64,000 nucleotides of DNA from Microbacterium sp. (GTDB lineage: Bacteria; Actinomycetota; Actinomycetes; Actinomycetales; Microbacteriaceae): the NCBI GenBank assembly GCA_017306415.1, contig JAFKIL010000008.1, positions 1 to 64,000 of the forward strand, in the 5' to 3' direction. The notes beneath the pieces were generated by a model. That model was not told where the DNA came from and ran no database searches. It saw only the letters and a program-made list of their open reading frames with translations. Below, piece by piece: positions 18,870 through 53,072 of this stretch; position 1 is the stretch's first letter, and every line of letters begins with the position of its first letter. The position numbers and the translations under genes are program-made.

Positions 18870-18878
18870 GAAGATCCG

Positions 18879-18923
18879 TTATGTACCTCCTCTCCCGACT
18901 TATGTAGGAATCAGACGTAATCT
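18879..18923 (+). promoter_or_regulatory. Promoter region of the fused C-glycoside deglycosidase gene with direct repeats
   Basis: TTATGTA occurs at 18879-18885 and 18900-18906, exactly 21 bases (two helical turns) apart, upstream of a possible -10 TAATCT (18918-18923) with no good -35. This is the layout expected for an activator-dependent promoter. GAATCAGAC (18908-18916) just before the -10 recurs at 28561-28569 just before another predicted -10. Confidence 0.45.
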
Positions 18924-19010
18924 CTGCTACCGTGGCGGCGGGCGTCACCGCCCCGCGGGCACGTCGGTGTCCCGCGCGATCGACGCCCCCGGGCGGAAGA
19001 GTGAGCACCG

Positions 19011-20315
19011 ATGCTTCTCGAGAGAGACCTGATCCAGTCCGTCGGATTCCGCAACGTGCGCGAGGGCGGTGAGGTCACCGGGTTCCAGCTGCGTGTGCGC
19101 ATCCCGAACTATCGCGGGCTCGCGGCATCCCTCATCGACGGGATCTCGGTCCGCGTCGACGACATCGTGGACGTCGGGCCCGATGTCCCACTGTGGACGC
19201 TGCAGGGCGGCACCTACACGCTCGCGCAGCTGTGGGACTCCGACGGTGTCCGCTGGCCGCTCGAGGAGGCGGCGATCGTGACGGTGCCCCATCCCGGCGG
19301 GCTCGCCGAGGGCGTCCACGAGGTCTCGGTGGAGGTCCTGCTGCGCGCGTCGTACATCCCGATCGAGCACCAGCCCAGTCGCACGCGCGCGACGCGGCAC
19401 GTCACCCTGTCGCCGGAGGCGGACGGCGCCCCGTTCCGGTACGGCGTCTCGCTCTACAGCTACACCGACGACTTCAACACCGTGCTCGGCCTCGAGGGGG
19501 CCATGGCCGCGATCGCCGACATCGGGGCCACCGGCATCGAGATCCTCGGCGAGGGGCACATCCCGGGCTACCCGGAGCCGACGACGTCGTGGACGGACCG
19601 GTGGTTCGAGCTCCTCGAGCAGTACCGGCTCGAGCCGACGAACTACGGGTCGTGGATCGACACCCGTCTCCACTCCAGCGGTCCGCACGCGCGCGAGTTC
19701 ACGGCCGCGGAGGGCGCCGCGACGCTGCAGCGCGACCTGCGGCTCGCGAAGCGGCTCGGCTTCCGCTTCGTGCGCCCGAAGATCGGGGTCGTGTCGAGCG
19801 ACCTCGTGCCGCATCCGACGTGGACAGAGGCCGTCGAGCGCAGTCTGGACCTCGCCGCCGAGCTGGACGTCGTGATCTGCCCCGAGATCCACTCGCCGAC
19901 CCCGATCAAGCATCCCGTCGTCGAGGAGTACATCGAGTTCATCCAGCGCACTGGGACGAAGCACTTCGGCCTGCTCATCGACACCGGCATCTTCCAGGAC
20001 CGCCCGATCCCGCTGCGCCCCGGCGAGACCCGGGAGACGCGACCCGCGTTCCTCGACGGACTGGGGGTGGACCCCGCGGACTTCGCCGACGTCGCGCCCT
20101 ACGTCGTATTCGTGCAGGCGAAGTTCCACGACATCGACGAGACGCTCGAAGACCAGCAGATCCCGTGGCGCCCCGTGCTCCAGGGGCTCAAGGATGCCGG
20201 CTACGCCGGGTACCTGTCGAGCGAGTACGAAGGGGTGCGCAGCCCGTGGCGCTCGCTCGAGCAGGTGCGCCGCCAGCACTCCCTGATGCGCACCATCGCC
20301 TCGCAGCTCGACTGA
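19011..20315 (+). CDS. Fused beta-alpha C-glycoside deglycosidase-like protein
   Basis: 434 residues. Residues 1-137 resemble the small beta subunit of C-glycoside deglycosidases (DUF6379 type, as DfgB, DgpC and CarC). Residues 142-434 are a TIM barrel of the AP-endonuclease-2/sugar isomerase fold, like the alpha subunit (DfgA, DgpB, CarB). In the alpha part E292 and H294 (PEIHSP), D324 (LLIDTG) and E405 (SSEYEG) match the metal/catalytic pattern of the separate alpha subunits at 29029 and 30190, but the HVHxKF histidine is Gln at 369 (VQAKFHDID). It should cleave the C-C bond of a 3-oxo-C-glycoside by elimination, or be a variant acting on a related ketoglycoside. The characterised enzymes are two separate chains; a single-chain form is unusual. 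An SGNH hydrolase follows. Confidence 0.75.
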   Translation: MLLERDLIQSVGFRNVREGGEVTGFQLRVRIPNYRGLAASLIDGISVRVDDIVDVGPDVPLWTLQGGTYTLAQLWDSDGVRWPLEEAAIVTVPHPGGLAEGVHEVSVEVLLRASYIPIEHQPSRTRATRHVTLSPEADGAPFRYGVSLYSYTDDFNTVLGLEGAMAAIADIGATGIEILGEGHIPGYPEPTTSWTDRWFELLEQYRLEPTNYGSWIDTRLHSSGPHAREFTAAEGAATLQRDLRLAKRLGFRFVRPKIGVVSSDLVPHPTWTEAVERSLDLAAELDVVICPEIHSPTPIKHPVVEEYIEFIQRTGTKHFGLLIDTGIFQDRPIPLRPGETRETRPAFLDGLGVDPADFADVAPYVVFVQAKFHDIDETLEDQQIPWRPVLQGLKDAGYAGYLSSEYEGVRSPWRSLEQVRRQHSLMRTIASQLD

Positions 20316-20361: not shown

Positions 20362-21540
20362 GTGAACGAGGCGACCACGGGGCTCGTGCGCGCGAGCCTG
20401 CGGGGGATCGTCGACGTCGAGGTCACGGACACCGGCCTCATTCCGCTGCGGCTGCCGTCGCGCGCTCGCGCTCAATCCGACTCGGACTGGATGTGGATCG
20501 CGGCGGAGCAGCCGTCAGGTGTGCGCTGCGCGTTCCGGACAGCCGCGACCTGGATCGAGCTGACGGTGGAGACGATGGGGCTGTTTCTGCCCTGGATCCC
20601 CGACCAGGAGCGGTGGGCGGTGTTCTCCGCGACGGTAGACGGCCACCCCGTCGACGACGCCCGCGTGACGGGCGGCTCGGAACTCCATCTGGGGGAGCCC
20701 GGGGGATCGCGCTTCGTCCAGGGTGCGCCCGCCCTCGTGCGATTCGAACTCGGCGGAACGGGTGCCGAGGAACGCCGGGTCGACGTGTGGCTGCCCCAGA
20801 CGGACCGGGTCGAGATCCGTGACGTCCGAGCCGATGCCCCCCTCCGGCCCGCCGACGGGGTCGATGGCCCGCGGTGGTGGCATTACGGCAGCTCGATCAG
20901 CCACTGCATCGAGGCGACCACGCCGCGCGGTGTGTGGCCCGTGGTCGCCGCCGACCGGCTGGCGCTGGACGTCACGAATCTCGGTTTCGCGGCCAACGCC
21001 CATCTCGATCAGTTCACGGCGCGGGCGATGCGCGACTCCGGCGCGGACCTGCTCAGCCTGAAGGTCGGGATCAACATCGTCGGCGGCGACACCATGAAGC
21101 GGCGGACGTTCATCCCGGCCGTCCACGGCTTCCTCGACACGATCCGCGACGGCGCTCCGACGACCCCGATCCTCGTGGTCTCGCCGATCATCTGCCCGAT
21201 GCACGAAGACACCCCGGGGCCGACCGTCACCGATCCAGAGACAGGGGAGCGGCGCGGAACCCCCGTGCAGACGGCAGATCCGTTCGACCCGCCCCTCACC
21301 CTGCGGTCGGTACGGCAGATCCTGCACGACATCGTGCGGGCGCGCGCGTCGGACGACCCCGCGGTGTTTTACCTGGACGGCCGGGAGCTGTTCGGCGCGG
21401 ACGATCTCGCGGAGCTGCCCGACGGCCTGCATCCGAGCCCCGCCGGGTACCTGCGGATGGCGGAGCGGTTCGCGGGATCGCCCGTCGTCTCGGAGTGGAG
21501 GGCCGGCGCGCGGTCCGTCGCCGGTGACCGTTCCGGCTGA
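20362..21540 (+). CDS. SGNH/GDSL-family hydrolase with N-terminal beta-sandwich (carbohydrate-esterase type)
   Basis: 392 residues from a GTG preceded by GGAGCGAGG. About 165 residues of beta-sandwich precede an SGNH domain: WHYGSSISH carries the nucleophile Ser and LPDGLHPSPAGY carries the Asp/His dyad. There is no signal peptide. The arrangement recalls the CE2/CE3-like esterases, so it may remove acyl groups from sugar moieties before oxidation or deglycosylation. It follows the fused deglycosidase by 47 bases and is probably cotranscribed with it; it converges on the LysR gene. Confidence 0.7.
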   Translation: MNEATTGLVRASLRGIVDVEVTDTGLIPLRLPSRARAQSDSDWMWIAAEQPSGVRCAFRTAATWIELTVETMGLFLPWIPDQERWAVFSATVDGHPVDDARVTGGSELHLGEPGGSRFVQGAPALVRFELGGTGAEERRVDVWLPQTDRVEIRDVRADAPLRPADGVDGPRWWHYGSSISHCIEATTPRGVWPVVAADRLALDVTNLGFAANAHLDQFTARAMRDSGADLLSLKVGINIVGGDTMKRRTFIPAVHGFLDTIRDGAPTTPILVVSPIICPMHEDTPGPTVTDPETGERRGTPVQTADPFDPPLTLRSVRQILHDIVRARASDDPAVFYLDGRELFGADDLAELPDGLHPSPAGYLRMAERFAGSPVVSEWRAGARSVAGDRSG

Positions 21541-21554: not shown

Positions 21555-22490
21555 TCAGGCGTGCGCGCCCGACTCGACGAGCTGCCCGGCCTCGACGAAC
21601 AGTGCGCGCATCCACGCGTGCTCGGGGTCCCGCGAATGGACCGGATGCCACCACAGCGCGTTCACGAGCGGGGTGGCGTCGAACGGGAGGTCCACGACCC
21701 GCAGCCCGCCGATGCGCCGGGCGATCGGCGCGAGCGCAGCCTGGATCAGCCCGATCCGATCGCTGCCCGCGATGAAGTGCGGGAGGGAGAGGAAGCTCTC
21801 CACGACGATCTCGACCCGGGGCTCCACCCCCAGCTGCTGCACCTGGCGTTCGGCGGAGGTGAAGGCGGAGCGCGTCTGGTAGTTCATGACCCACGGCAGC
21901 TCGGTCATGTTCTCCATCGTGAGCGTGTCTCCCACCGCGGTGTTCTCCTCGGCGACGATTCCTACCCAGGTGTCGTGCCACAGGTCGGCGTACGGGAGTT
22001 CGGCGAGGAAGCCGTGCGGGATCACCATGCCGTCCACGGACCGGAGCCGGTTGGCGGCATCCTCGACGATGAGGGGGTTGTGCAGTGCGAAGCGGAAGCG
22101 CACGCCCGGTGCCCGCTCCGCGGCGAGCTCCGCGACGGCGTGGCCGATCGTGGTGAAGCCGTAGTCGGAGCCGTAGATCACGAACTCCCTGGTCGACTCG
22201 GCCGGTGCCCAGGATGCCTGGCTCTCGAAGACGCGGCGTGCGGCCTCGAGGGCGACCGTGGTGTGCTCCGCGAGGCGCAGCGCGAACGGGGTGAGTTCGT
22301 AGGAGTTGCCGCGGCGGGCGAGGATGGGGTCCCCGAAGTGGGTGCGGAGTCGGGCGAGCGAGGCGCTCAGCGCGGGCTGGCTCAGGTGGAGGCGGTCGGC
22401 GGCGCGTGTCACGCTGCGCTCCGTCAGCAGCGCATCGAGCGACACGAGCAGGTTCAGGTCGAGCCGCGAGAGCAGGGCGAGGTCGGTCAC
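21555..22490 (-). CDS. LysR-family regulator (NodD/NahR-like) divergent from the C-glycoside importer operon
   Basis: 311 residues from the GTG at 22490; GGAGG lies about 12 bases upstream. The N-terminus (LDLNLLVSLDALLTERSVTRAADRLHLSQPALSASLARLR) is the LysR winged helix-turn-helix, followed by a substrate-binding domain of two alpha/beta lobes. The LDLNLL start resembles NodD, NahR and PcpR-type members, which sense flavonoids or aromatic compounds; that resemblance is by eye. It lies divergent from the importer that opens the island, so it is the best candidate activator for it, with the aglycone or the glycoside as effector. Confidence 0.85.
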   Translation of the reverse strand: MTDLALLSRLDLNLLVSLDALLTERSVTRAADRLHLSQPALSASLARLRTHFGDPILARRGNSYELTPFALRLAEHTTVALEAARRVFESQASWAPAESTREFVIYGSDYGFTTIGHAVAELAAERAPGVRFRFALHNPLIVEDAANRLRSVDGMVIPHGFLAELPYADLWHDTWVGIVAEENTAVGDTLTMENMTELPWVMNYQTRSAFTSAERQVQQLGVEPRVEIVVESFLSLPHFIAGSDRIGLIQAALAPIARRIGGLRVVDLPFDATPLVNALWWHPVHSRDPEHAWMRALFVEAGQLVESGAHA

Positions 22491-22595
22491 GTCGGTGTGA
22501 TCCTCCGGTGCGGGGGCGGTGGCCCCGAGTGTATCAATGGCCCTGATGCGCGCGCCGTACCGCATCCTTCCCTGCGATGTACCGCTGGGCCCGCA

Positions 22596-22715: not shown

Positions 22716-24017
22716 ATGTCACAGCACCGCCGTACCCGGGCGTCGCGGATCGGCCTCATCGCCGCCCCGCTCGCCGTGGGCGCCCTCGTCCTCGCCGGCT
22801 GCTCGGGAACCTCATCCGACAACAGCAGCACCAGCGGGGGTCCGCAGCAGTTCTCGTTCACGTACGTCACCTCCAACAACATCGAGAGCGCCTTCGAGGC
22901 GATCGCGAAGGTGTACATGCAGGAGCACCCGGAGGTGAAGATCACCCTCAACGCGCAGCCGAACGACCAGTACGACCAGACCCTGCGCACCCAGCTGCAG
23001 GCCGGCAACGCCTCCGACCTCGTCGAGACCTCTCCGGGCACCGGTCAGGGCCGCAGCCTCATCCCGCTCGCGAAGGCCGGCTTCCTCGAGCCCCTCAACG
23101 ACAAGGCCACGGCGCTCGTGCCGGAGAACAGCAAGTCGCAGTTCATCCTGAACGGCAAGACGTACGGCGCTCCCACGGACCTGACCTTCATCGGGATGGT
23201 CGAGAACGAGACGGCGGCAAAGGCCGCGGGCGTCTCCACCTTCCCCGCCGACTGGGACTCGCTGAAGGCGGCCTGCACCTCGGCGAAGTCCGCGGGCAAG
23301 TCCTTCGCCGTCCTCGCCGGCGCGGCGGCACCGAACACCGGGCTGCTCGCGATGGTGATCGCAGCGACGCGCGTGTATGCCGACAACCCGAAGTGGGACC
23401 AGGACCGCGCCGACAAGAAGGTCACGTTCGCCGACAGCGACGGCTGGAAGGCCGCGCTCAAGACGGTCACCGACCTCAAGGATGCCGGATGCTTCCAGTC
23501 CGGTGTCGAGGGCGCGGGCTTCGACGCGATCACCAACGGCATGGCGCAGGGCACATCGGTGGCCTCGTTCATCCCCGCTCCCTCGGTCGCACAGCTCGCG
23601 TCGGCAGCGAAGGACCAGACGTTCGCGGTGCAGGCGTTCCCGCCGGCCGCGAGCAGCGACAAGCCGTTCGGGTTCGCGAGCATCAACTACGCGCTGTCGA
23701 TCACGAAGGCGTCGAAGAACAAGGCAGCCGCGCAGGCGTTCCTCGACTGGCTGGGTGAGCCCGCCAACGCCAAGAAGTTCGCCGACATCGACGGCGGACT
23801 CCCGGTCAGCGGCGTGGGAGACCTCGACCTGTCGAAGACGCCGTACGCACCGGTCGCCGACATCCTGAAGTCCGGCGACTACACCGGCCTCCCGAACTCC
23901 AACTGGTCGAACGCCGCGGTCTACGACGCGCTGTCGACGGGGGTCCAGGGTCTGCTCACCGGGCAGAAGTCGGTGAGCGACGTCCTGAAGGCGATGGACG
24001 CCGCCTGGGATCAGTGA
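22716..24017 (+). CDS. ABC transporter substrate-binding lipoprotein, candidate C-glycoside binder
   Basis: 433 residues; ATG at 22716 after AGAAAGG. A lipoprotein signal ends in LAGC near residue 29, then a Ser/Thr linker (SGTSSDNSSTSGG). The remainder is a family-1 type extracellular solute-binding protein. It heads a cluster of two permeases and more than a dozen sugar- and aromatic-modifying genes, so its ligand is probably the C-glycoside or an oligosaccharide-linked form. No ATPase gene accompanies it, as for the other two importers here. Confidence 0.88.
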   Translation: MSQHRRTRASRIGLIAAPLAVGALVLAGCSGTSSDNSSTSGGPQQFSFTYVTSNNIESAFEAIAKVYMQEHPEVKITLNAQPNDQYDQTLRTQLQAGNASDLVETSPGTGQGRSLIPLAKAGFLEPLNDKATALVPENSKSQFILNGKTYGAPTDLTFIGMVENETAAKAAGVSTFPADWDSLKAACTSAKSAGKSFAVLAGAAAPNTGLLAMVIAATRVYADNPKWDQDRADKKVTFADSDGWKAALKTVTDLKDAGCFQSGVEGAGFDAITNGMAQGTSVASFIPAPSVAQLASAAKDQTFAVQAFPPAASSDKPFGFASINYALSITKASKNKAAAQAFLDWLGEPANAKKFADIDGGLPVSGVGDLDLSKTPYAPVADILKSGDYTGLPNSNWSNAAVYDALSTGVQGLLTGQKSVSDVLKAMDAAWDQ

Positions 24018-24059: not shown

Positions 24060-25022
24060 ATGACTGCGACGACGCAATCGGAGACGGAGACGCTGGTCGT
24101 GCCTCGCCGGGGCAAGCGGACCGCGGGGCCGGGTGGAGACATCCGGCCCCGCCGGCCCGGACTCCTCAAGTTCGGGCACTGGTGGTGGGCTCTCCCCGGC
24201 GTCCTGCTCGTGATCGCGGTCCACTACGTCGCCACGGGAATCGGCGGGTTCTTCGCCTTCACGAACTGGACCGGAATCGGCGACTGGACCTGGATCGGGT
24301 TCCAGAACTTCGTCAAGATCTTCCAGGACCCGACGAAGATCGGCGCCCTCGGCAACACGCTCTTCCTCGCGTTCGGCTCGGTCATCCTGAGCAACGTCGC
24401 CGGTCTCGTCCTGGCGGTCGGCCTCAACCGGGTGCTGAAGACCCGCTACATCCTGCGGGTGCTGTTCTTCATGCCGGTCGTGCTCAGCCCGCTGGCCACC
24501 TCGTACATCTGGAAGTTCATCTTCGACTACAACGGCCCGCTCAACGCGATCCTGAAAGCCGTGGGATTGGGCGCGCTGGCGCAGCCGTGGCTCGCGAGCC
24601 CGACGTGGTCGATCTGGGCCGTGCTCATCGTGCTCGTGTGGCAGAACACCGGGTTCGCGATGGTCATCTACATGGCGGGTCTCGCGGCGGTTCCGGTCGA
24701 GATCGAGGAGGCGGCCGCGATCGACGGCGCGGGCCTGTGGCAGCGCTTCTGGCACGTGACGCTCCCGGCCATCCGTCCCGCCGTCGCGATCGCGACGACC
24801 CTCGGGATCGTGAACGGGCTGCGCGTGTTCGACCAGATCATGGCGCTCACCGGCGGCGGTCCCGCCGGTGCGACGGAGACGCTCGCGACGCAGGTCTACA
24901 AGCAGGCGTTCTCGCTCGGCAACTTCGGCTACGGCGCCGCGCTGGCGCTGCTGCTGACCATCATCATCCTGGTCTTCGCGGTGATCCAGCAGCGTGTGAC
25001 CCAGGGCCGCTCGGAGGACTGA
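24060..25022 (+). CDS. ABC sugar transporter permease, MalF type
   Basis: 320 residues; ATG after GAAGGAAGA. The cytoplasmic N-terminal tail of about 40 residues precedes six membrane segments. The EAA loop reads EAAAIDGAGLWQRFWHVTLPAI. It pairs with the permease starting one base after its stop to form the channel of the island's importer. Confidence 0.9.
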   Translation: MTATTQSETETLVVPRRGKRTAGPGGDIRPRRPGLLKFGHWWWALPGVLLVIAVHYVATGIGGFFAFTNWTGIGDWTWIGFQNFVKIFQDPTKIGALGNTLFLAFGSVILSNVAGLVLAVGLNRVLKTRYILRVLFFMPVVLSPLATSYIWKFIFDYNGPLNAILKAVGLGALAQPWLASPTWSIWAVLIVLVWQNTGFAMVIYMAGLAAVPVEIEEAAAIDGAGLWQRFWHVTLPAIRPAVAIATTLGIVNGLRVFDQIMALTGGGPAGATETLATQVYKQAFSLGNFGYGAALALLLTIIILVFAVIQQRVTQGRSED

Positions 25023-25023: not shown

Positions 25024-25860
25024 ATGTTCCGGTACACGAAGCTCTCGCTCCTGCGCGAGGTCGGCCTGTGGCTCCTGGCCCTCGTCTTCCTCCTCCCCTT
25101 CTACTTCCTCATCACCATCGCGCTCAAGCCGGACGACGAGGTGTTCACCACGTCGCCGCTCGCCCCGCCCAGCACCGCCTACTTCGGCAACTTCGCGACC
25201 GTGCTCACCGCGCAGGGCAACTCGAACGTGGTGCTGGGGCTCATCAACAGCCTCATCATCACGGCCGGCAGCATCTTCGGCCTCGTGCTCCTGGGCTCCC
25301 TCACCGGGTACGTCATCGCGCGCAGCACCCGGCGGTGGAGTCGCGGGGTCTACTACCTGTTCCTCATCGCGATCGTGCTCCCCACCCAGCTGGGCGTCGT
25401 CCCGCTCTACATCGGCGCACGGACGATCGGCCTGACCGGGTCGGCGTGGGGCATGATCATCCTCTACACCGGGATGCTGCTGCCGCTGTCGATCTTCCTG
25501 TACGCCGGGTTCTTCCGCGGGCTCGGGATCGAGTACGAGGAGGCCGCGACGATCGACGGCGCGAGCCGCACCCAGATCTTCTTCCGCATCGTCCTCCCGC
25601 TGATGTCGCCCGCGACGGGGACCGTCGCGATCCTCGCGGGCCTCATCGTGTGGAACGACTTCTTCACGTCGCTGATCTTCCTCGGCGGATCGAGCAACCA
25701 GACGCTCCCCGTCGCGATGTACTACTACATCGGGTCGCTCGTCTCGGAGTGGAACAAGATCTTCGCGATCGTGATCGTCTCGATGATCCCGATCCTGGCG
25801 TTCTACCTGTTCGCGCAGAAGCGGTTCATCCAGGGCTTCGCCGGCGGGCTCAAGGGCTGA
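25024..25860 (+). CDS. ABC sugar transporter permease, MalG type
   Basis: 278 residues, six membrane segments, EAA loop EAATIDGASRTQIFFRIVLPLM. It begins one base after the previous stop and is followed four bases later by a SnoaL-like gene, so uptake and metabolism of the substrate are expressed from the same message. Confidence 0.9.
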   Translation: MFRYTKLSLLREVGLWLLALVFLLPFYFLITIALKPDDEVFTTSPLAPPSTAYFGNFATVLTAQGNSNVVLGLINSLIITAGSIFGLVLLGSLTGYVIARSTRRWSRGVYYLFLIAIVLPTQLGVVPLYIGARTIGLTGSAWGMIILYTGMLLPLSIFLYAGFFRGLGIEYEEAATIDGASRTQIFFRIVLPLMSPATGTVAILAGLIVWNDFFTSLIFLGGSSNQTLPVAMYYYIGSLVSEWNKIFAIVIVSMIPILAFYLFAQKRFIQGFAGGLKG

Positions 25861-25864: not shown

Positions 25865-26236
25865 ATGGGCGACAACCGTGCTGCCTTCGAGCGGTTCTGC
25901 GAGCTGTTCTACACCGAGCGGCGGGTGGCGGATGCCTTCGCCTTCCTCGTCGCCGACGACTACCGCCAGCACAACCCGTCCATCGTCGACGGACCGGCCG
26001 CCGCGATCGAGATGCTGACCCCGAAGTTCGACGGGTCGCCCGACGCGCGGTTCGATATCCAGCGCATCCTCGTCGACGGCGACCTGGCGATGGTGCACGT
26101 GAAGGCTTCGCGACCCGGCGCACCCGACGCCGCGGTCGCGGATATCTACCGATTCGACGGCGGCCGGATCGTCGAGCACTGGGACGTGCTGCAGCAGGTT
26201 CCCGTGCATGCCGCCCACGACCATCCGATGTTCTGA
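25865..26236 (+). CDS. SnoaL-like polyketide-cyclase-fold protein
   Basis: 123 residues with the NTF2/SnoaL cone fold pattern: an N-terminal helix pair (AAFERFCELFYTERRVADAFAFL), the YRQHNP motif and a terminal strand pair (IYRFDGGRIVEHWDVLQQVP). Relatives are described as aldol-type or lactone-type enzymes. Here it is embedded between the importer and a hydroxypyruvate-isomerase-like gene, so a role in rearranging the unstable enone or ketosugar released from C-glycoside cleavage is possible. The real function is unknown. Confidence 0.7.
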   Translation: MGDNRAAFERFCELFYTERRVADAFAFLVADDYRQHNPSIVDGPAAAIEMLTPKFDGSPDARFDIQRILVDGDLAMVHVKASRPGAPDAAVADIYRFDGGRIVEHWDVLQQVPVHAAHDHPMF

Positions 26237-31995: not shown

Positions 31996-32412
31996 ATGGC
32001 CACTCACAACTCCCTCTTCGCCGAGAAGGACGTCCGGCGCGTCGACGACGGCATCGCCGTCTCGCTCCAGCTCCCCTGGTACCGCAGCCTGTGGCTCTCC
32101 GCGGTGGACGACGTCGCGGCATCCGTCAACGGCGTCGAGATCCCGAAGGACCGCCTGCGGTTCGAGCTGGAGGGCCGCAGCTACCGCATCGAGGAGCTGC
32201 CCGAGCAGTCCGAGACGCTGTGGTTCGTCGCCGACCGGCCCGACGTGGTGATCTCGCTCGACGACGTGCCCGCCGCCGGTGAGAAGATCACCGTCGAGGT
32301 GGTCCTCACCATGCGTCTGCTGTACATGCAGATCATGCCCGGCGTCGACGGCGGCCCGGGTCGCTACGTCAGCAACCGCGTGCCGGTCGAGCGGGAAGTC
32401 GTCCTCTCATGA
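31996..32412 (+). CDS. Second C-glycoside deglycosidase beta subunit-like protein (DUF6379 type)
   Basis: 138 residues; ATG after TAAGGA. It carries LQLPWYRSLWLSAV, a VNGVEIP turn, YRIEELPEQ and a C-terminal strand pair, parallel to the first beta protein. The C-terminus (MPGVDGGPGRYVSNRVPVEREV) is longer. It probably pairs with the alpha protein at 30190. It overlaps the Gfo/Idh gene start by four bases. Confidence 0.8.
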   Translation: MATHNSLFAEKDVRRVDDGIAVSLQLPWYRSLWLSAVDDVAASVNGVEIPKDRLRFELEGRSYRIEELPEQSETLWFVADRPDVVISLDDVPAAGEKITVEVVLTMRLLYMQIMPGVDGGPGRYVSNRVPVEREVVLS

Positions 32413-45489: not shown

Positions 45490-45562
45490 TAGACCTGAGG
45501 GCGGGTCGTCCCCGACGATCCGCCCTCGACAGCCCCGGGCATCCGGGGCAGCAGGAGGATTC

Positions 45563-46531
45563 ATGACGACGAGGTCCGCCGGGCTCACCGCCCCGTTCGC
45601 GCTCGCACGCTATCGCGATGCCGACGGGACGACCCTCGGACTCGTGGCCGGCGACCGCATCCGTCCGCTCGGCGCTGCCGATCTCGGCGCGCCCGACCTG
45701 AACGCCTTCCTCGTCGCGCCGGACTGGGACCGCGTGGCCGGCCTCGCAGCCGGCGACGCCGACTGGCGCGCGCTGGACGACGTGACCCTGGTCGCACCGG
45801 TCGAGCCGCGGCAGGTGCTGCAGACCGGCGCGAACTACCGGCAGCACGTGATCGAGCTCGTCGCCGCCGGCCTCACGCAGGACGACACCCGCACGCCGGA
45901 GGAGGCGCGGGCGTTCGCCGCGAAGCTCATGGACGACCGGCGTGCGAACGGCGAGCCCTACTTCTTCATCGGACTCCCCGCGTGCGTGGTCGGCGACGAC
46001 GTGCCGCTCGCGCTCCCCGCGTACAGCGACGTCCACGACTGGGAGCTGGAGCTGGCCGTCGTGATCGGCGTGCCCGCCTTCCGCGTCGCGCGGGACGAGG
46101 CGATGGCGCACGTCGCGGGCTACACGATCTGCAACGACATCACCACGCGCGACCTCGTCTTCCGCAAGGACATGAAGGAGATCGGCACCGACTGGTACCG
46201 GGCGAAGAACGCGCCCGGGTTCCTCCCGACCGGTCCGTTCCTGGTGCCGGCGCCGTTCGTCGACGCCGCGGACCTGCACGTGCGGCTCGAGCTCAACGGG
46301 CAGATCATGCAGGATGCCTCGACCTCCGACCTCCTGTTCGACCTGCCCGCCCTCGTCGCGGGCGCATCCTGGAACATGCCGCTGCTGCCGGGCGACCTGC
46401 TCCTCACCGGGAGCCCCGCGGGCAACGGGCAGCACTGGAAGCGGTTCCTCCGCGACGGCGACGTCATGACCGGCAGCATCGAGGGCCTCGGCACCCAGGT
46501 CGTCCGCTGCATCGCGGAGGACGGGCGATGA
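45563..46531 (+). CDS. Fumarylacetoacetate-hydrolase-family protein
   Basis: 322 residues; ATG after CAGGAGG. An N-terminal domain of about 80 residues precedes the FAH fold with metal ligands in DWELELAVVIG and NDITTRD. Members hydrolyse, decarboxylate or hydrate dioxo acids formed after meta ring cleavage. Following an extradiol dioxygenase, cleavage of the ring-opened product is the expected job. It overlaps the next gene by four bases. Confidence 0.83.
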   Translation: MTTRSAGLTAPFALARYRDADGTTLGLVAGDRIRPLGAADLGAPDLNAFLVAPDWDRVAGLAAGDADWRALDDVTLVAPVEPRQVLQTGANYRQHVIELVAAGLTQDDTRTPEEARAFAAKLMDDRRANGEPYFFIGLPACVVGDDVPLALPAYSDVHDWELELAVVIGVPAFRVARDEAMAHVAGYTICNDITTRDLVFRKDMKEIGTDWYRAKNAPGFLPTGPFLVPAPFVDAADLHVRLELNGQIMQDASTSDLLFDLPALVAGASWNMPLLPGDLLLTGSPAGNGQHWKRFLRDGDVMTGSIEGLGTQVVRCIAEDGR

Positions 46532-47526
46532 GCGCGCCGAGCGAGTTCCCCGCCGACCTGGATCGCACCGACCCGGAGGGCGAGATCGCGGCGCGCGCGG
46601 CCGCCTACCGCAACTGGGGCCGGTGGGGCGCCGACGACCGCCTCGGAACGCTCAACCACATCGACGACGCCAAGCGGATCGAGGCCGCGGGACTGGTCCG
46701 CACCGGCCGCGCGATCTCGCTCGCGCAGTCGTTCGACACCGCCGGGCCGCAGAAGGGCTGGCGCCGCCGCACCAACCCGGTGCACACCATGACTGACACC
46801 GGCGTCGACGCCGAGCGGGCGAACCAGGGCTTCCCGCACGGCATGGGGGGCGCCGACGACGTCATCGCCATGCCCCTGCAGTGCTCGACCCAGTGGGACG
46901 GCCTCGGCCACATCTTCGACCACGGCACGGCGTGGAACGGACGCCGCGCAGGCGACGTCGTCACGAGCGAGGGCGACCTGGTGACGGGCATCGAGCACGC
47001 GGCATCCGTCGTCGTATCCCGCGGTGTCCTGCTCGACGTCGGGCGCCACCTGCAGCCGGAATCCGGCGAGCTGCCCGACGGCTACGCCATCACGGCCGCC
47101 GACCTGGACGCGTGCATCGCCGCACAGGGGGAGTCCGCCCGCGTCGGCAGAGGGGACATCGTCCTCGTGCGCACCGGCCAGTACGCGCGCACGCGGCGCG
47201 AGGGGTGGGGCGACTACGCCGGCGGTCCTGCACCCGGTCTCTCGCTGACGACGGCCGGATGGCTGCACCGCACCGAGATCGCCGGGATCGCCACCGACAC
47301 GTGGGGCTTCGAGGTCCGTCCGAACGAGTTCGACGTGCCCGCGTTCCAGCCGCTCCACCAGGTGGTGATCCCGAATCTCGGGCTCACGATCGGTGAGATG
47401 TGGAATCTGGAGGCGCTCGCCGACGCGTGCGCGGCGGAGGGCCGCTACGACTTCCTCCTCAGTGCGGCGCCGCTGCCGATCACCGGCGCCGTCGGCTCGC
47501 CGATCAATCCCGTCGCCCTGCTGTAG
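46528..47526 (+). CDS. Cyclase/kynurenine-formamidase-fold hydrolase
   Basis: 332 residues. The long form of the cyclase family (PF04199-like) is recognisable from WGADDRLGTLNHI, the metal motif region STQWDGLGHIFDHGTAWNG, and RGDIVLVRTG. The usual HxGTHxD motif is the QWDGLGH variant found in this longer subgroup. It may hydrolyse a lactone, amide or C-C bond in the ring-cleavage route. Actual reaction unknown. Confidence 0.75.
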   Translation: MSAPSEFPADLDRTDPEGEIAARAAAYRNWGRWGADDRLGTLNHIDDAKRIEAAGLVRTGRAISLAQSFDTAGPQKGWRRRTNPVHTMTDTGVDAERANQGFPHGMGGADDVIAMPLQCSTQWDGLGHIFDHGTAWNGRRAGDVVTSEGDLVTGIEHAASVVVSRGVLLDVGRHLQPESGELPDGYAITAADLDACIAAQGESARVGRGDIVLVRTGQYARTRREGWGDYAGGPAPGLSLTTAGWLHRTEIAGIATDTWGFEVRPNEFDVPAFQPLHQVVIPNLGLTIGEMWNLEALADACAAEGRYDFLLSAAPLPITGAVGSPINPVALL

Positions 47527-47568
47527 CCGCACGACGACCCCCGACCGCAGGAACAGAGAGGTTCTGAC

Positions 47569-48705
47569 ATGACCGCAGTGAAGAAGGTCGCGATCGCCGG
47601 CAGCGGCGTCGCCGCGATGGCCGCCGCCATCCAGCTCGCGAAGGCCGGTGTCGACGTCGACGTGTTCGAGGCGAAGCCCGAACTCAGTGCCCTCGGGTCG
47701 GGCATCACCCTCCAGGGCAACGCGCTGCGCGTGTTCGACGCGCTCGGGGTCTGGGAGGACGTGCGCGACAAGGGCTACTTCTTCGAGGGTCTGACCCTCC
47801 GCGCGCCCGGCCCCGACGCGCCCGTCGTCGCGGAGCTCCCCGAGGTGAAGACCGGCGGCCCGGACTACCCCGCGGGTGGGGGGATGCCGCGTCCCGACCT
47901 CGCCGCGATCCTCGTCGAGCACGCCGAGGCGGCCGGCGCGCACGTCCGGTTCGGTGCGCGCGTGACGGGCCTCGACGCCCGCGCGGACGATGCCGTCGAG
48001 GTGTTCGTGAACGACGAGTCCGCCGGCGTGTACGACCTGCTCATCGGCGCCGACGGGCTCAACTCGACGGTGCGCGAGCTCATCGGCATCGACACCCGCC
48101 CCGAGCCGACCGGCATGGGGATCTGGCGCGCGTTCGTCTCGCGTCCGGCCGAGGTCGAGCGCAGCGAGCTCTACTACGGCGGCCCCGTCTACATCGCCGG
48201 CTACACCCCGACGGGCGAGGACACGATGTACGCGTACCTCGTCGAGGACGCGCAGGACCGCACCGGCGTCTCGGACGACGAGGCCGTGCAGATCATGCTG
48301 GGCGAGTCCATGGCCTACGGCGGTCCGTGGGAGGCGATCCGCGCCGACCTCGCCGCCGGGGCGAGCGTCAACTACACGTGGTTCACGCAGCACATCGTGC
48401 CCGCGCCGTGGAACCGCGGCCGGGTCGTCGTGATCGGCGACGCGGCCCACAGTTGCCCTCCGACGATCGCGCAGGGTGCCGCACAGGCACTCGAGGACGC
48501 GCTCGTGCTCACCGAGCTCCTCACGGCGCGCGACGCGGTCGACCAGGACCTCTGGGATGCGTTCCACGCGCGTCGCGTCCCCCGCGCGCAGGCCGTCGTC
48601 GAGGCATCCGTCCAGCTGGGTGCGTGGCAGCTCGAGCACAACCGCGATGCCGACGCGCCCGGCCTCATCTTCGGCATCGCGCACCGCATGGCGGAGCCGG
48701 CATGA
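47569..48705 (+). CDS. FAD-dependent aromatic hydroxylase (salicylate/flavoprotein monooxygenase type)
   Basis: 378 residues; ATG after AGAGAGG. Group A flavoprotein monooxygenase motifs: GSGVAAMAAA (dinucleotide binding), IGADGLNSTVR (DG motif) and VVVIGDAAHSCPP (GD motif). It would use NAD(P)H and oxygen to hydroxylate the aglycone ring, making the catechol cleaved by the dioxygenase upstream. Its stop overlaps the amidohydrolase start by four bases. Confidence 0.85.
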   Translation: MTAVKKVAIAGSGVAAMAAAIQLAKAGVDVDVFEAKPELSALGSGITLQGNALRVFDALGVWEDVRDKGYFFEGLTLRAPGPDAPVVAELPEVKTGGPDYPAGGGMPRPDLAAILVEHAEAAGAHVRFGARVTGLDARADDAVEVFVNDESAGVYDLLIGADGLNSTVRELIGIDTRPEPTGMGIWRAFVSRPAEVERSELYYGGPVYIAGYTPTGEDTMYAYLVEDAQDRTGVSDDEAVQIMLGESMAYGGPWEAIRADLAAGASVNYTWFTQHIVPAPWNRGRVVVIGDAAHSCPPTIAQGAAQALEDALVLTELLTARDAVDQDLWDAFHARRVPRAQAVVEASVQLGAWQLEHNRDADAPGLIFGIAHRMAEPA

Positions 48706-48794
48706 CCGAGGCGCATGCGCACGACGCCGGGGTCGCGGAAGACCGAACGCAGGGCGTCGGCATGACCGAGGCGCACGCGCACGACGCCGGGGTC
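48699..48794 (+). repeat. 60-bp tandem duplication at the amidohydrolase start
   Basis: The 36-base stretch 48699-48734 recurs at 48759-48794 with one mismatch. Both copies contain an ATG in the same frame (48702 and 48762), and the unit of 60 bases keeps the frame. Confidence 0.9.
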
Positions 48795-49793
48795 ACCGAC
48801 GTCCACGCCCACGTCCTGCTGCCCTCCCTGCAGGCGGAGGTGGAGCGACGTGCGCCGGAGGGTTTCGCCGCCGCTGCCGCCCTGGAGCTGCGGCGCAACG
48901 GCGCCGAGAGCCAGGCGGTGTCCGGGCCGATGGTCGGGGCGCGCATCCCGAAGCTGACCGATGTCGCGGTCCGGCTCGGGGCGATGGACGCGCAGGGCGT
49001 CGACCGCCAGTGGGTCAGCGCCTCGCCGAACCACTTCTATCCGTGGGCGGAGGAGCAGCTGGCGGTGTGGGCGGCGTGCGAGGCGAACCGCCTCGTCGCC
49101 GAGCACGTGGCGCAGGCCCCGGAGCGGCTCACGGGTCTCGGGCTCGTGCCGCTGCAGCATCCGTCGCGCATCGTGGAGTGCGTCGACGACGCCGTGCTCG
49201 GGCGCGGCCTGGCCGGCGTGGAGATCTCTTCGTTCGCGGGGGACGTCGAGCTGTCCGACGAGCGCCTCGAGCCGTTCTGGGCCCGCGTCGAGGAGCTCGG
49301 CGCGATCGTGTTCCTGCATCCGTTCGGCTGCAGCCTGGACGAGCGGCTCGACCGCTTCTACCTCGCGAACACGGTCGGACAGCCGGCCGAGAACGCGGTC
49401 GCCCTCTCGCATCTGATCTTCGGGGGCGTGCTCGACCGCCACCCCAGGTTGCGCCTGGTCGTCGCACACGGGGGCGGATACCTCCCGACCGCGATCGGCC
49501 GCTCCGACCACGCGTGGCGCGTGCGCCCCGAGGCACACCGCTGCGCGCACGAGCCGTCCCACTATCTGCGGCGGATCTGGTTCGACACCGTCGTCCACGA
49601 CGAACTGGCGCTGCGCCATCTCGTCGAGGTGGCGGGCGGCGCGCAGGTCGTGCTCGGGAGCGACTTCCCGTTCGACATGGGGCTCGAGGACCCCGTTGGC
49701 TTCGTGACGGGTACGGGGCTGCCGGCGGAGGTCGTCGCCCGGATCGTCGGGTCGAACGCCGCCGCGCTCCTCCGCGCGAAGATCCGCACATAA
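48702..49793 (+). CDS. ACMSD-like metal-dependent amidohydrolase/decarboxylase with duplicated N-terminus
   Basis: 363 residues. After a duplicated peptide (MTEAHAHDAGV at 1-11 and 21-31) the amidohydrolase-2 barrel begins: H35 and H37 (DVHAH), FLHPFG with a metal His, VVAHGGGYLP and GSDFPFDM with the catalytic Asp. Relatives are aminocarboxymuconate-semialdehyde decarboxylase and nonoxidative aromatic acid decarboxylases. In this operon decarboxylation of an aromatic or ring-cleaved acid is likely. The second ATG at 48762 gives the normal family N-terminus; the first is created by a 60-base duplication. Confidence 0.82.
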   Translation: MTEAHAHDAGVAEDRTQGVGMTEAHAHDAGVTDVHAHVLLPSLQAEVERRAPEGFAAAAALELRRNGAESQAVSGPMVGARIPKLTDVAVRLGAMDAQGVDRQWVSASPNHFYPWAEEQLAVWAACEANRLVAEHVAQAPERLTGLGLVPLQHPSRIVECVDDAVLGRGLAGVEISSFAGDVELSDERLEPFWARVEELGAIVFLHPFGCSLDERLDRFYLANTVGQPAENAVALSHLIFGGVLDRHPRLRLVVAHGGGYLPTAIGRSDHAWRVRPEAHRCAHEPSHYLRRIWFDTVVHDELALRHLVEVAGGAQVVLGSDFPFDMGLEDPVGFVTGTGLPAEVVARIVGSNAAALLRAKIRT

Positions 49794-49948: not shown

Positions 49949-51463
49949 ATGAAGCCTTCGTCCCGGGTCCCCGCGCCCGTCCTCACGCCGCTCCGGCTCC
50001 GCCTGCTGCTCGTGTCGCTGCTGTCGGTGTCGTTCCTCGGCGCCCTCGACAACACCGTCGTCTCCACCTCGCTCGCGACGATCGCCGGTCAGCTCGGTGC
50101 GCTCGAGCACATGAGCTGGATCGTCGTCGGATACACGCTGTCGAGCACCGTGCTCCTGCCCGTGCTCGGCAAGCTGGGCGACGTGGTCGGCCCGCGCAGC
50201 GTGTTCCTCGCCTCCCTCGTCCTGTTCCTCCTCGCCTCGCTCGCCTGCGGGTTCGCTCCCGGCATGGGATGGCTGATCGCCGCGCGCGTCGTGCAGGGGA
50301 TGAGCTCCGCCGGCCTCCAGCTGATGTCGCAGACGATCGTCGCGCGGGTCACATCCCCGCGTCAGCGTCCCCGCTCGCTGGCGATCATCGGCACCGCGTT
50401 CCCCATCGCGATCCTGATCGGCCCCGTGCTCGGCGGTCTCATCACGGACTACTGGGGCTGGCCCTGGATCTTCTGGATCAACCTCCCGGTCGGCGTCGTC
50501 GCGCTGACCCTCGCGCTCATCGCCGTGCCGCATCTCGCGCCCGGAGAGCGACCGAGCTTCGACATCCCCGGCACCGTGACGCTCACGGTCGGCCTCGTCG
50601 CGCTCGTGCTGGCGGTCACCTGGATCGGCGAGGAGTCGTCCCGCGCGGCCGCGCTGGCATGCTTCCTCGTCGCGGCGATCGCGTTGGCCGCCTTCTTCGC
50701 CGTCGAGGTGCGCGCGTCCGCGCCGATCCTGCCCCTGCGGCTCTTCGCCGACCGTGCGTTCGCGGCGGGCACGGTGCTGTCCGCGATCATCGGCATCGGC
50801 CTGTTCTCGGTGACGTCGTTCCTCCCCACCTACATCCAGATGGCCTACCGCGCGACCGCCACCGTCTCGGGCCTCGTGCCGATCGCGACGGTGTTCGGCA
50901 TGCTCTTCGCCAACCTCGCCACCGGCTCTCTCGTCGGCCGCAGCGGTCGGTACCGGCTGTACCCGATCCTCGGCACCTCGCTCGGCGCCCTCGGGCTCCT
51001 GGGCATGGCGCTGCTGCCGGTCGGCCTCCCGCTCGCCGCGCCGATGGCGATCATGTTCGTCGTCGGCGTCGGTACCGGATGCTTCATGAGCCTCGTCGTC
51101 GCGATCGTGCAGAGCGCCGCCCCGCCGAGCCAGACCGGCACCGCGACGGCGACCGTGAACCTCGTGCGCCAGATCGGGTCGACGGTCGCGACCGCCGTGA
51201 TCGGCGGCGTGATCGCCGTGGGCGTCGCCGCCGCGCTCCCGCGGGGCCTCGACGCCGCCACCCTCACGCCGCAGCTCGTGCACGCGGCGGACCCGGCGAC
51301 GCAGGCCGCCGTCGCCGCCATCTACCGTGACGTCTTCACGCCGATCTTCCTCGCGCTCGCCGCGGTGTACGCGATCGGCATCGTCGCCGCGCTGCTCCTG
51401 CCCCGCGGCCGGCTCTCCGACGACCACGAGCCGGCTCCCGCCACCGAACCGATCGCCGCCTGA
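49949..51463 (+). CDS. MFS transporter, DHA2 (EmrB/QacA) type
   Basis: 504 residues from the ATG at 49949; upstream in-frame starts would fall in the promoter leader. About 14 membrane segments, the motif LDNTVVSTSLATI in helix 1, GKLGDVVGPR between helices 2 and 3, and GPVLGGLITDYWGWPWIFWINLPVG in helix 5, typical of proton-driven DHA2 exporters. It could export toxic aromatics or take up the aglycone. The GMC oxidase follows after 40 bases and is probably cotranscribed. Confidence 0.85.
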   Translation: MKPSSRVPAPVLTPLRLRLLLVSLLSVSFLGALDNTVVSTSLATIAGQLGALEHMSWIVVGYTLSSTVLLPVLGKLGDVVGPRSVFLASLVLFLLASLACGFAPGMGWLIAARVVQGMSSAGLQLMSQTIVARVTSPRQRPRSLAIIGTAFPIAILIGPVLGGLITDYWGWPWIFWINLPVGVVALTLALIAVPHLAPGERPSFDIPGTVTLTVGLVALVLAVTWIGEESSRAAALACFLVAAIALAAFFAVEVRASAPILPLRLFADRAFAAGTVLSAIIGIGLFSVTSFLPTYIQMAYRATATVSGLVPIATVFGMLFANLATGSLVGRSGRYRLYPILGTSLGALGLLGMALLPVGLPLAAPMAIMFVVGVGTGCFMSLVVAIVQSAAPPSQTGTATATVNLVRQIGSTVATAVIGGVIAVGVAAALPRGLDAATLTPQLVHAADPATQAAVAAIYRDVFTPIFLALAAVYAIGIVAALLLPRGRLSDDHEPAPATEPIAA

Positions 51464-51503
51464 CCCCGACCCGTCGAACCCGAAGCCCCATCGAGGAGTA
51501 TCC

Positions 51504-53072
51504 ATGCCGCAGCATCCCACCATCGCCGTCGTCGGGAGCGGACCCATCGGTGCCGCATACGCCCGGCTCATCCTGGAGGGCGCGCCCTCCGCGAGGGTCG
51601 TCATGTTCGAGGCCGGACCGCAGCTCACGGCCCTCCCGGGCGAGAGCGTGCGCAACATCCCGGACCCGGCCGAGAAGGAGCGCGCCCGCGAGCTCTCGCA
51701 GGGCCCGCAGGCGGGGGCGCTGCGGTCATCGCTCGGCATCCCCGAGACGGCCGTCGTGGAGGGCATGTTCACGGCGCGTCAGGGCACGCACCTGATCGAC
51801 TTCGGCGGCGAGGGGTCGGGCCACGCCCCGACGTTCCCGGCCGCCGCGGCCTCGACCAACGTGGGCGGGATGGGCGCGCACTGGACGTGCGCGACGCCCT
51901 CGCCGGCGTTCAGCGAGAAGATCCCATTCATCCCGGACGACGAGTGGGACGAGCTGATCGAGGTGGCGAAGGGCCTGCTCCACGTGCAGAGTGCGGCGTT
52001 CGCCGACTCGGGCGTCGGCGCCGCCATCCGGTCCCTCCTCACGGAGGAGTACGAGGGCGATCTCCCGGATGGCTTCGGGCCGAGCACGCTTCCGGTCGCG
52101 GGCGACCCGCAGCCCGACGGCTCGATGCGGTGGGCGGGTGCGGACGTCGTCCTCGGACCCCTCGCCGTGCCGGGCACTCCGGAGCACGCGCGCTTCGAGC
52201 TGCGCGACCTCACCCTCGTCCGCCGCGTCGAGACGGAGGACGGCCGGGTGACGGGCGTCACCGTCGAGGACCTGCGGACGCAGGAGACCTCGTTCGTCCC
52301 CGCCGACCTGGTGGTCGTGGCGGCCGACGCGTTCCGATCGCCGCAGCTGCTGTGGGCGTCGGGCATCCGCCCTCGCGCGCTCGGGCACTACCTCACCGAG
52401 CACCCTGTCGTCATCTGCACGGTGGCGCTCGACGCCGAGCGCATGGCCCGGTTCGCCACGGAAGCCGACCTCGAGGCGGAGCTCGCCCGCCGCGCGGCGA
52501 ATCCCGTCGATCCGGTGGCGGCGGTCAACCGCATCCCGTTCTCGGAGCCGGACCACCCGTTCTCGCTGCAGGTGATGTACTCCGAGACCACGCCGTTCCC
52601 GATGGAGCCGGGAGCCGCATACTCCGGCAATCGGTGGGGCTACGTGAACATGGGCTACGGCATGCGCAAGGCGCCGCGCTTCGAGGACGGCGTCACCTTC
52701 GACGACGACGACCGGGACTACCGCGGGTTCCCGAACATGACGATCCAGTACGAGCTCACCGAGAGCGAGAACGCCGAGATCGCCGCCGGCACCGCCCTCC
52801 TCCGCCGCGCCGGCGGCGCTCTCGGCGACTTCGTGGCCGAGCCGCGGCTGCTGCCGAACGGCTCGAGCCTCCACTACCAGGGCACGATGCGCACGGGGGA
52901 GACGGACGACGGCACGTCGGTCGCCGACCCCTATTCGCGGGTGTGGGGCGTCGAAGGTCTGTACGTGGGCGGCAACGGCCTGATCCCCACCGCGACCACG
53001 ATGAACCCGACGCTCATGAGCGTGGCCATCGCCGTGCGAGGCGCCCGTCAGGCGGTCGCCGACATCTCCTGA
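51504..53072 (+). CDS. Second GMC-family FAD oxidoreductase, pyranose/glycoside 3-oxidase-like
   Basis: 522 residues; ATG after GAGGAG. GSGPIG near residue 11, TNVGGMGAHWTCATP (pyranose-oxidase-like, with Ala in place of the Thr before His), catalytic pair H457 (LHYQGTMRTG) and N501 (MNPTLM). It is clearly paralogous to the enzyme at 27042 but has a longer middle domain, so a different glycoside or sugar is likely. Its separate promoter with an MFS gene means it may be induced independently of the importer operon. Confidence 0.85.
   Translation: MPQHPTIAVVGSGPIGAAYARLILEGAPSARVVMFEAGPQLTALPGESVRNIPDPAEKERARELSQGPQAGALRSSLGIPETAVVEGMFTARQGTHLIDFGGEGSGHAPTFPAAAASTNVGGMGAHWTCATPSPAFSEKIPFIPDDEWDELIEVAKGLLHVQSAAFADSGVGAAIRSLLTEEYEGDLPDGFGPSTLPVAGDPQPDGSMRWAGADVVLGPLAVPGTPEHARFELRDLTLVRRVETEDGRVTGVTVEDLRTQETSFVPADLVVVAADAFRSPQLLWASGIRPRALGHYLTEHPVVICTVALDAERMARFATEADLEAELARRAANPVDPVAAVNRIPFSEPDHPFSLQVMYSETTPFPMEPGAAYSGNRWGYVNMGYGMRKAPRFEDGVTFDDDDRDYRGFPNMTIQYELTESENAEIAAGTALLRRAGGALGDFVAEPRLLPNGSSLHYQGTMRTGETDDGTSVADPYSRVWGVEGLYVGGNGLIPTATTMNPTLMSVAIAVRGARQAVADIS

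Follow-up and report, generated by a model that had tools for sequence, protein, structure and literature searches.

A Microbacterium island with predicted genes for removing the sugar from aryl-C-glycosides and for opening the ring of the aglycone

Can one bacterial locus encode both the release of the sugar from plant aryl-C-glucosides and the opening of the aromatic ring that is left behind? The question is raised by a stretch of 64,000 nucleotides from Microbacterium sp. (genome size 3.76 Mb; assembly GCA_017306415.1, contig JAFKIL010000008.1, positions 1 to 64,000, forward strand), which is part of contig C3 and is called the window below. A codon-model gene call divided the window into 61 genes, whose numbering is used throughout. 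All genes at 17871-53072 and seven neighbours were scanned with Pfam, with NCBIfam and PDB searches alongside, and the gene call and these matches together delimited an island of genes 14-45 (19011-53072). We consider it quite likely that the island serves the catabolism of plant aryl-C-glucosides including ring opening of the aglycone, the most likely substrates being C-glucosyl flavones and perhaps xanthones. As a predicted function, aryl-C-glycoside catabolism has good support from closely related proteins of solved structure and from the conservation of catalytic residues. Sequence, residues and linkage likewise back the enzyme classes assigned to the oxidation, C-C cleavage, hydration and extradiol steps, together with the genetic link between the two halves.

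The original prediction had placed such an island at 18870-53072. Its end holds, but its first gene begins at 19011, position 18870 being just past a LacI-type regulator gene. An importer, two GMC oxidases, three Gfo/Idh enzymes, four deglycosidase beta domains, eight TIM barrels, a short-chain dehydrogenase, a ThuA-like protein and a five-gene aromatic operon had been listed, and all of them were found by Pfam, NCBIfam or PDB matches. Beyond that list, the island contains a GDSL hydrolase, LysR and ROK regulators, two SnoaL-like proteins, an MFS transporter and a divergent protein of Gfo/Idh fold.

The core of the sugar-releasing half consists of the GMC oxidases and the C-glycoside deglycosidases (CGDs):

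19011-20315, forward: gene 14, fused CGD (beta domain plus TIM barrel); PF19906 at 116.1 bits
27042-28562, forward: gene 22, GMC oxidase of the C-glycoside/glucoside 3-oxidase type; PDB matches and residues
28637-29032, forward: gene 23, CGD beta subunit; PF19906 at 48.7 bits
29029-30147, forward: gene 24, CGD alpha subunit (TIM barrel); 7dnm_A at E 1e-56
30190-31230, forward: gene 25, CGD alpha subunit (TIM barrel); Pfam
31996-32412, forward: gene 27, CGD beta subunit; PF19906 at 52.0 bits
39333-40781, reverse: gene 35, fused CGD-like protein; PDB matches, residue alignment and model
51504-53072, forward: gene 45, second GMC oxidase, of the pyranose/C-glycoside oxidase type; 8qve at 373 bits

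Two of the four beta domains (genes 14, 23, 27 and 35) are fused to a TIM barrel, in genes 14 and 35; the other six barrels belong to the genes starting at 26251, 29029, 30190, 33611, 34669 and 35640. The likeness of these beta domains to the deglycosidase profile was borne out: three exceed the Pfam cut-off of the CGDB beta domain PF19906 (27.6 bits), and the fourth, that of gene 35, scores 21.7 bits but matches a solved beta subunit (E 1.6e-6). Seven of the eight barrels exceed the PF01261 cut-off (31.1 bits), the barrel of gene 35 scoring 17.4 bits. Gene 14 matches 8qrz with 764 bits over residues 1-433 and was present in all seven same-genus relatives, i.e. those carrying PF19906. In AgCGD2, the metal ligands are E147, D179, H269, K271 and E305, accompanied by the pair H149 and E307, and mutation has shown that this His and Glu matter for C-C cleavage (PMC8563793). 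When four barrels were aligned, all seven residues were kept in genes 24 and 25 and six of the seven in gene 14, where Gln stands at the place of H269 in five of five sequences; D179 in genes 25 and 14 was read from this four-barrel alignment, direct pairing with AgCGD2 being made for gene 35 only.

As for the oxidases, the closest PDB entries to gene 22 are 7qf8 (855 bits) and 7dve (796 bits), which we take to be PsG3Ox and MtCarA, respectively. H439 and N483 of gene 22 align, with an offset of one residue in the match, with H440 and N484 of PsG3Ox, both of which are essential (PMC10646112). The catalytic His and Asn are also retained in gene 45, as seen from its alignment with gene 22. On the strength of these residues and of their closest relatives, genes 22 and 45 are predicted C3 oxidases of C-glycosides. 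M. trichothecenolyticum (G058), the species of MtCGD, an enzyme with activity on a xanthonoid and on flavonoids glycosylated at C6 (PMC8563793), holds its best gene 22 match (795.5 bits, against 795.8 for 7dve) within the same island, located at 145,795-187,706 of contig 33. Of the six PF19906 domains in this genome, the island holds five, one of which scores below the cut-off, and the sixth is on a different contig.

The second half is an aromatic operon of genes 39-43 (44452-49793), which includes a fumarylacetoacetate hydrolase (FAA hydrolase, FAH) type gene:

44452-45489, forward: gene 39, type I extradiol dioxygenase; Pfam, NCBIfam, PDB and residues
45563-46531, forward: gene 40, FAA-hydrolase family enzyme; Pfam
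46528-47526, forward: gene 41, PF04199 cyclase-family hydrolase; Pfam
47569-48705, forward: gene 42, FAD aromatic monooxygenase type; Pfam, NCBIfam and PDB
48702-49793, forward: gene 43, amidohydrolase-2 family enzyme; Pfam

Type I extradiol dioxygenases of the glyoxalase-type family carry a metal triad of two His and one Glu. H158, H222 and E273 of gene 39, invariant in ten of ten aligned sequences, occupy the places of this triad, and the protein matches catechol 2,3-dioxygenase models and structures (NCBIfam, PDB), below the equivalog cut-offs. Loci with a gene 39 relative numbered 79 (the best 79 of 218 confirmed relatives, with flanks of at most 10 kb and several contigs shorter). A second FAA-hydrolase type, less than 45% identical to gene 40, occurs in 71 of them and in all six same-genus islands that have the operon, two FAH matches being present in 55 of the 79; no such second gene was called after gene 43 in the window.

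The most likely aglycone, we infer, is a flavonoid that undergoes opening of its A ring. A substrate from outside the flavonoids appears unlikely; arguments for it are the origin of CarB and CarC, a Microbacterium obtained by enrichment on carminic acid, and the activity of MtCGD on a xanthonoid too (PMC8563793). Against it stands the described route of A-ring opening in naringenin (fde) and isoflavone (ifc) degradation, in which a monooxygenase is followed by a dioxygenase (PMC11069340, PMC11303751, PMC10755750), the two enzyme types found here. Two further observations fit flavonoids better. Firstly, two related ring-cleavage modules free of CGD genes, L065 of M. aoyamense and L118 of Agromyces seonyuensis, have alpha-L-rhamnosidase and GH3 genes just past their LysR gene, which suggests flavonoid O-glycosides as another feed of such modules. 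Secondly, protocatechuate genes stand in G385, a genome of the same phylum and another class. Here, one run (L131/L132) contains an importer with its ATPase, seven CGD matches (three alpha, four beta), a GMC oxidase, the dioxygenase (48%), monooxygenase, FAA hydrolase and cyclase, as well as pcaGH and pcaB, whose scores exceed the cut-offs of their models, and two CoA-transferase genes that belong to the pcaI/pcaJ subfamilies. These last neighbours point to a product bound for the protocatechuate pathway. On contig C10 of our host, two PF00775 matches stand next to each other, with a pair of CoA-transferase genes, all within about 5 kb; these predicted intradiol dioxygenase and CoA-transferase genes, located outside the island, could act as finishers of aglycone breakdown.

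Finally, we examined how often the two halves occur together. Among 150 genomes of the family, 12 carried PF19906, 16 carried gene 39 (E up to 1e-80), 12 had both and four had gene 39 only. Gene 39 was present in 12 of 12 CGD-bearing genomes, host included, versus 4 of 138 others (Fisher p 1e-14, ignoring phylogeny), and in ten of the twelve the nearest beta domain lay within 11 kb of it, domains being counted at E up to 0.001 even where they fell short of the Pfam cut-off, as some did. In a sample of 296 genomes of the phylum, four had PF19906 (one below the cut-off) and four gene 39 (E up to 1e-60), both being present in the host and in G385. A CGD gene was found in 48 of the 79 gene 39 loci, and 41 of these 48 also had a GMC oxidase. 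In Sinomonas (L097), about 20 bases separate the end of the dioxygenase match from the GMC oxidase match, which is followed by a CGD of the gene 14 type in two pieces and by relatives of gene 29, gene 28 and genes 30 and 31. A plasmid of Deinococcus aetherius carries a solute-binding protein, two permeases, a sugar isomerase, DUF6379, a GMC oxidase, a VOC dioxygenase (65% to gene 39), a cyclase and an FAA hydrolase. On a megaplasmid of Arthrobacter StoSoilB13, counterparts of genes 17-29, 32 and 35-45, less gene 20, were found, with identities of 31-83% that mostly exceed 60%; the stretch starts inside gene 17, genes 14-16 being outside it. A Microbacterium-like island with up to 95% identity was also seen in a record titled Planococcus sp. 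APC 4015 (L074), which may be misnamed or stem from a mixed assembly.

Several observations weigh against a joint pathway. The nearest beta domain is 85 kb away from gene 39 in G138 and 787 kb away in G207, and the Fisher test of co-occurrence takes no account of phylogeny. Within the phylum sample, CGDB occurs in G300 (where it falls under the Pfam cut-off) and in G419, neither of which has the dioxygenase at E 1e-60, and in G253 and G319 the reverse is seen. No CGD was present in the stretch in 31 of the 79 module loci, some contigs being short, and gene 45 occurs in three of these 31. The modules of L065 and L118 are shorter and are devoid of a strong match to gene 40 and of a match to gene 43. 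The likeness to fde and ifc was drawn from published descriptions of two types of enzyme, not from sequences. The host itself also carries CGD-free modules on contig C7 and, in part, on contig C12:

L040, 6519-13598 (host C7): second ring-cleavage module; no cyclase match and no CGD genes
L039, 8893-19475 (host C12): partial third ring-cleavage module; no CGD genes

Consequently, the aromatic operon might be a separate general phenol-degradation module for some other substrate, the rest of the island being devoted to C-glycoside deglycosylation and sugar use. Such modules without CGD, in the 31 loci and on host contig C7, speak for this explanation, as does the fact that genes 37-45 have their own direction of transcription, beside a ROK regulator. 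We nevertheless regard it as distinctly improbable in view of the co-occurrence in the family, the gap of about 20 bases in Sinomonas, the recurrence of the association in Deinococcus and in another actinobacterial class, and the position of the second GMC oxidase (51504) at the end of the aromatic cluster. In the stand-alone modules, a LysR gene of the gene 16 type adjoins the module in 22 of the 31 loci. A flank scan covered 89 of 140 called open reading frames, mostly the longer ones, from 14 stand-alone loci including host C7, and yielded nine CoA-transferase and four thiolase matches. Two of the thiolases were tested and fell below the pcaF cut-off, so that the flank thiolases are not established as pca enzymes. 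That the oxidases, CGD-like proteins and Gfo/Idh enzymes would mainly process O-glycosides via 3-keto-glycosides, C-glycosides being incidental, is very unlikely: oxidation, elimination, hydration (on preliminary evidence) and reduction have indeed been described for O-glycosides in Agrobacterium (PMC10628242), but three CGD-type barrels retain the His and Glu important for C-C cleavage by mutation and gene 14 is near a solved C-glucosyl deglycosidase.

Catabolism of aryl-C-glucosides, which we continue to prefer, would also involve repair of the released sugar, candidates for which may lie among these TIM-barrel and Gfo/Idh genes:

26251-27045, forward: gene 21, hydroxypyruvate-isomerase-like TIM barrel; Pfam, NCBIfam below cut-offs, PDB
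32409-33584, forward: gene 28, Gfo/Idh oxidoreductase; Pfam
33611-34612, forward: gene 29, TIM barrel, candidate 2-hydroxy-3-keto-glucal hydratase; PDB
34669-35643, forward: gene 30, inosose-dehydratase-like TIM barrel; Pfam, NCBIfam below cut-off
35640-36641, forward: gene 31, inosose-dehydratase-like TIM barrel; Pfam, NCBIfam below cut-off
38327-39352, reverse: gene 34, Gfo/Idh oxidoreductase; Pfam
42538-43596, forward: gene 37, Gfo/Idh oxidoreductase; Pfam
43593-44351, forward: gene 38, divergent Gfo/Idh-fold protein; structure model

Gene 29 matches 8ro4 (E 1.7e-37 over residues 17-320) and 2zds (E 1.2e-152), and by its resemblance to 2-hydroxy-3-keto-glucal hydratase it is a candidate for this activity. 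Gene 28 is a candidate 3-keto-glucose reductase. As for gene 38, neither a Pfam match nor a GxGxxG-type motif was detected in the window protein. Its model (pLDDT 94.5) matches 3u3x (E 4e-11, 14% identity), and the notion of an unknown fold was dropped, as the model matches Gfo/Idh enzymes. The GxGxxG-type pattern was present within the first 60 residues in 5 of 28 aligned relatives and a weak PA-domain match in 10 of 28 (best E 0.00024); a gene 37 relative accompanied the gene 38 match in all 31 loci.

The scheme that we infer for the substrate, the regiochemistry, the pairing of alpha and beta subunits, the Gfo/Idh assignments and the order of the late aglycone steps is as follows. A binding-protein importer would take up the glycoside, whose glucose would be oxidised at C3 by the FAD oxidases (27042 and 51504). 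Metal-dependent deglycosidases (29029 paired with 28637, 30190 with 31996, and the fused 19011) would then release the sugar by beta-elimination. The resulting 2-hydroxy-3-keto-glucal would be hydrated by the product of 33611 and the 3-keto-glucose reduced to glucose by a Gfo/Idh enzyme. The FAD monooxygenase (47569) would hydroxylate the aglycone, and the extradiol dioxygenase (44452) would open the A ring. The ring-opened product would be broken down by the FAA-hydrolase, cyclase and amidohydrolase enzymes, and the B-ring fragment would enter a protocatechuate-type pathway encoded elsewhere. The original prediction had spoken of complete catabolism of aromatic C-glycosides. Solved relatives and catalytic residues back its C-glycoside part, and co-occurrence and synteny back the link to the aglycone; the word complete goes too far, as the aglycone reactions and the substrate are proposed, a second FAH-type gene is missing, and the possible finishing genes lie outside the island.

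The remaining genes of the island, and the regulator gene in front of it, are the following:

17871-18869, forward: LacI-type regulator; Pfam, unmatched in the relatives' islands
20362-21540, forward: gene 15, GDSL/SsfX3-like hydrolase; Pfam
21555-22565, reverse: gene 16, LysR regulator; Pfam
22716-24017, forward: gene 17, ABC solute-binding protein; Pfam
24060-25022, forward: gene 18, ABC permease; Pfam
25024-25860, forward: gene 19, ABC permease; Pfam
25865-26236, forward: gene 20, SnoaL-like protein; Pfam
31223-31987, forward: gene 26, SnoaL-like protein; Pfam
36638-37510, forward: gene 32, ThuA-like protein; PF06283 at 92.8 bits
37518-38303, forward: gene 33, short-chain dehydrogenase (SDR); Pfam
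41147-42427, reverse: gene 36, ROK regulator; Pfam
49949-51463, forward: gene 44, MFS transporter, DHA2/EmrB-like; NCBIfam, under the cut-off of that model, and Pfam

Genes 17-33 are codirectional; many of them overlap, and no gap between them exceeds 74 bases. Genes 34-36 are reversed and genes 37-45 run forward again, with gaps of up to 155 bases. A backbone of genes 14, 16-19, 21-25, 27, 32, 35-37 and 39-45 largely keeps its order in six of the seven same-genus relatives. In the seventh (G016), the island is split over contigs and the pieces examined stop before gene 39. Single genes are absent in some relatives (for example 26, 28 and 29 in G012; 26 and 29 in G019), and six of the seven have an extra CGD alpha/beta pair after gene 14, which the window copy does not have. 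Because the backbone recurs in same-genus relatives, the island is not a product of chance, and this conservation also ruled out a gene-calling artefact. Similar packages occur in distant bacteria, and the island is therefore probably a real working unit. GC content is 0.66-0.74 across the whole window, which contains no tRNA; no integrases or transposases were found among the Pfam-scanned genes, the sole place checked. The importer has no ABC ATPase among the same genes. Gene 15, found in one of the seven relatives (G017), is possibly a deacylase of acylated glycosides. Gene 13, the LacI gene and the one upstream gene tested, had no match in the relatives' islands, and it probably lies outside the conserved island. 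Further upstream (9446-17682), more sugar-use genes were seen by Pfam, namely GH3, an alpha-L-arabinofuranosidase, an ABC solute-binding protein and a LacI regulator.

The most divergent CGD-like protein is that of gene 35. Its barrel matches 7dnm_A at E 1.6e-25, and in the pairing with AgCGD2 the metal ligands are retained while Gln297 and Gly450 replace His149 and Glu307; a separate HMMER alignment with 7dnm_A gave the same residue pairing. The Gln/Gly pair was found in all 41 sequences compared (the window and 40 matches longer than 850 bases, with L059 and L075 left out of the 42 loci that have gene 35 pieces) and in 19 of 19 fused forms, and the metal ligands were invariant throughout. 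The open reading frame is fused in 18 of the 42 loci and in the window, and is divided into two genes in many others. Several short pieces represent the relatives of genes 35, 36 and 37 in Naasia aerilata (L059), and relatives of gene 22 appear as repeated pieces elsewhere in that genome; this fragmentation is possibly due to frameshifts or sequencing errors. In the AlphaFold model of gene 35 (pLDDT 85.4), the barrel matches 7dnm_A with a TM score of 0.84 by target. The best Foldseek match of the model is 8qrz, with a poor whole-chain superposition (root-mean-square deviation 18.5), and because of this the likeness of the two domain arrangements is not demonstrated. The ratio of nonsynonymous to synonymous substitution (dN/dS, a simple NG86 count) was 0.30-0.45 when the window copy was compared with five orthologues, and 0.22 for two pairs of closer sequences, exceeding most comparisons of genes 24 and 25 and still indicative of constraint. 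On these values, decay into a pseudogene was set aside. Since its residues are invariant and its evolution constrained, gene 35 is, as judged from sequence, a conserved subtype of the CGD family and not a standard CGD. We can only speculate about a wider model, which we put forward tentatively, as one with less than even prospects: a whole, modular pathway that leads from C-glycosyl flavonoids into central metabolism, joined several times across phyla, with the gene 35 subtype active without the His/Glu pair, through metal-only cleavage of another class of C-glycosides or through action on the eliminated keto-glucal.

No report of a link between CGD and ring cleavage was found in the literature searched, many subscription papers being outside its reach, and the combination with aglycone ring opening appears to be the new part of the island. 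The C-glycoside literature searched ends at sugar removal, and a locus that also carries ring-opening genes offers a testable route by which these plant compounds, with their very stable carbon-carbon bond to the sugar, could be used completely. It names candidate enzymes for most steps, points to a candidate deglycosidase subtype (gene 35), and hints at which bacteria may clear C-glycosyl flavonoids from soil and plant surfaces.

The C-glycoside core itself is known chemistry, gene 14 being near the solved Microbacterium testaceum CGD and gene 29 being hydratase-like. CarA/CarBC of Microbacterium, and PsG3Ox with PsCGD_B1/C1/B2/C2 of Pseudarthrobacter siccitolerans, combine the same types of oxidase and alpha/beta deglycosidase in one cluster (PMC10646112). 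In their accessible parts, these accounts deal with oxidation and C-C cleavage and present no aglycone operon, the word dioxygenase being absent from the main text of PMC10646112. The M. testaceum C-glucosyl deglycosidase (8qrz, 8un2) is, like gene 14, a single chain with beta and TIM parts, whereas the island has four CGD-type units, of which gene 35 is a second fused one without the catalytic pair. The hydratase structure 8ro4 and the Agrobacterium glycoside operon (PMC10628242) follow the same scheme of oxidation, elimination, hydration and reduction; however, that operon acts on O-glycosides and uses a different dehydrogenase, in place of the FAD oxidases and CGDs of the island. The original prediction took known systems to be limited to oxidation and C-C cleavage; this is partly outdated, hydration and reduction of the keto-sugar having been described for O-glycosides in that paper and a hydratase structure being available in 8ro4. 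As in the island, an FAD monooxygenase followed by a glyoxalase-type dioxygenase is described for naringenin (fde, Herbaspirillum) and isoflavones (ifc, Variovorax), and the accessible parts of these accounts mention no C-glycoside genes (PMC11069340, PMC10755750, PMC11303751). A match of all five aromatic genes to fde, which would need FdeD to be a cyclase, was rejected: FdeD is a Rieske protein (PMC8552027), and for this reason only the monooxygenase and dioxygenase types are shared with fde, by description. The fde terms were not found in PMC4440368. PurA/PurBC of Paenarthrobacter sp. No. 37, a soil actinobacterium growing on puerarin, likewise comprise an FAD oxidase and a CGD; the paper covers the first two steps only, and "gene cluster" and "transporter" are absent from its main text (PMC12724307). 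Finally, judging by the reference entry for Furlanetto 2024 and by PDB titles, a CGO/CGD cluster with a C-glucosyl deglycosidase is reported from Deinococcus aerius, and the related D. aetherius has its GMC oxidase and CGD beside a dioxygenase module.

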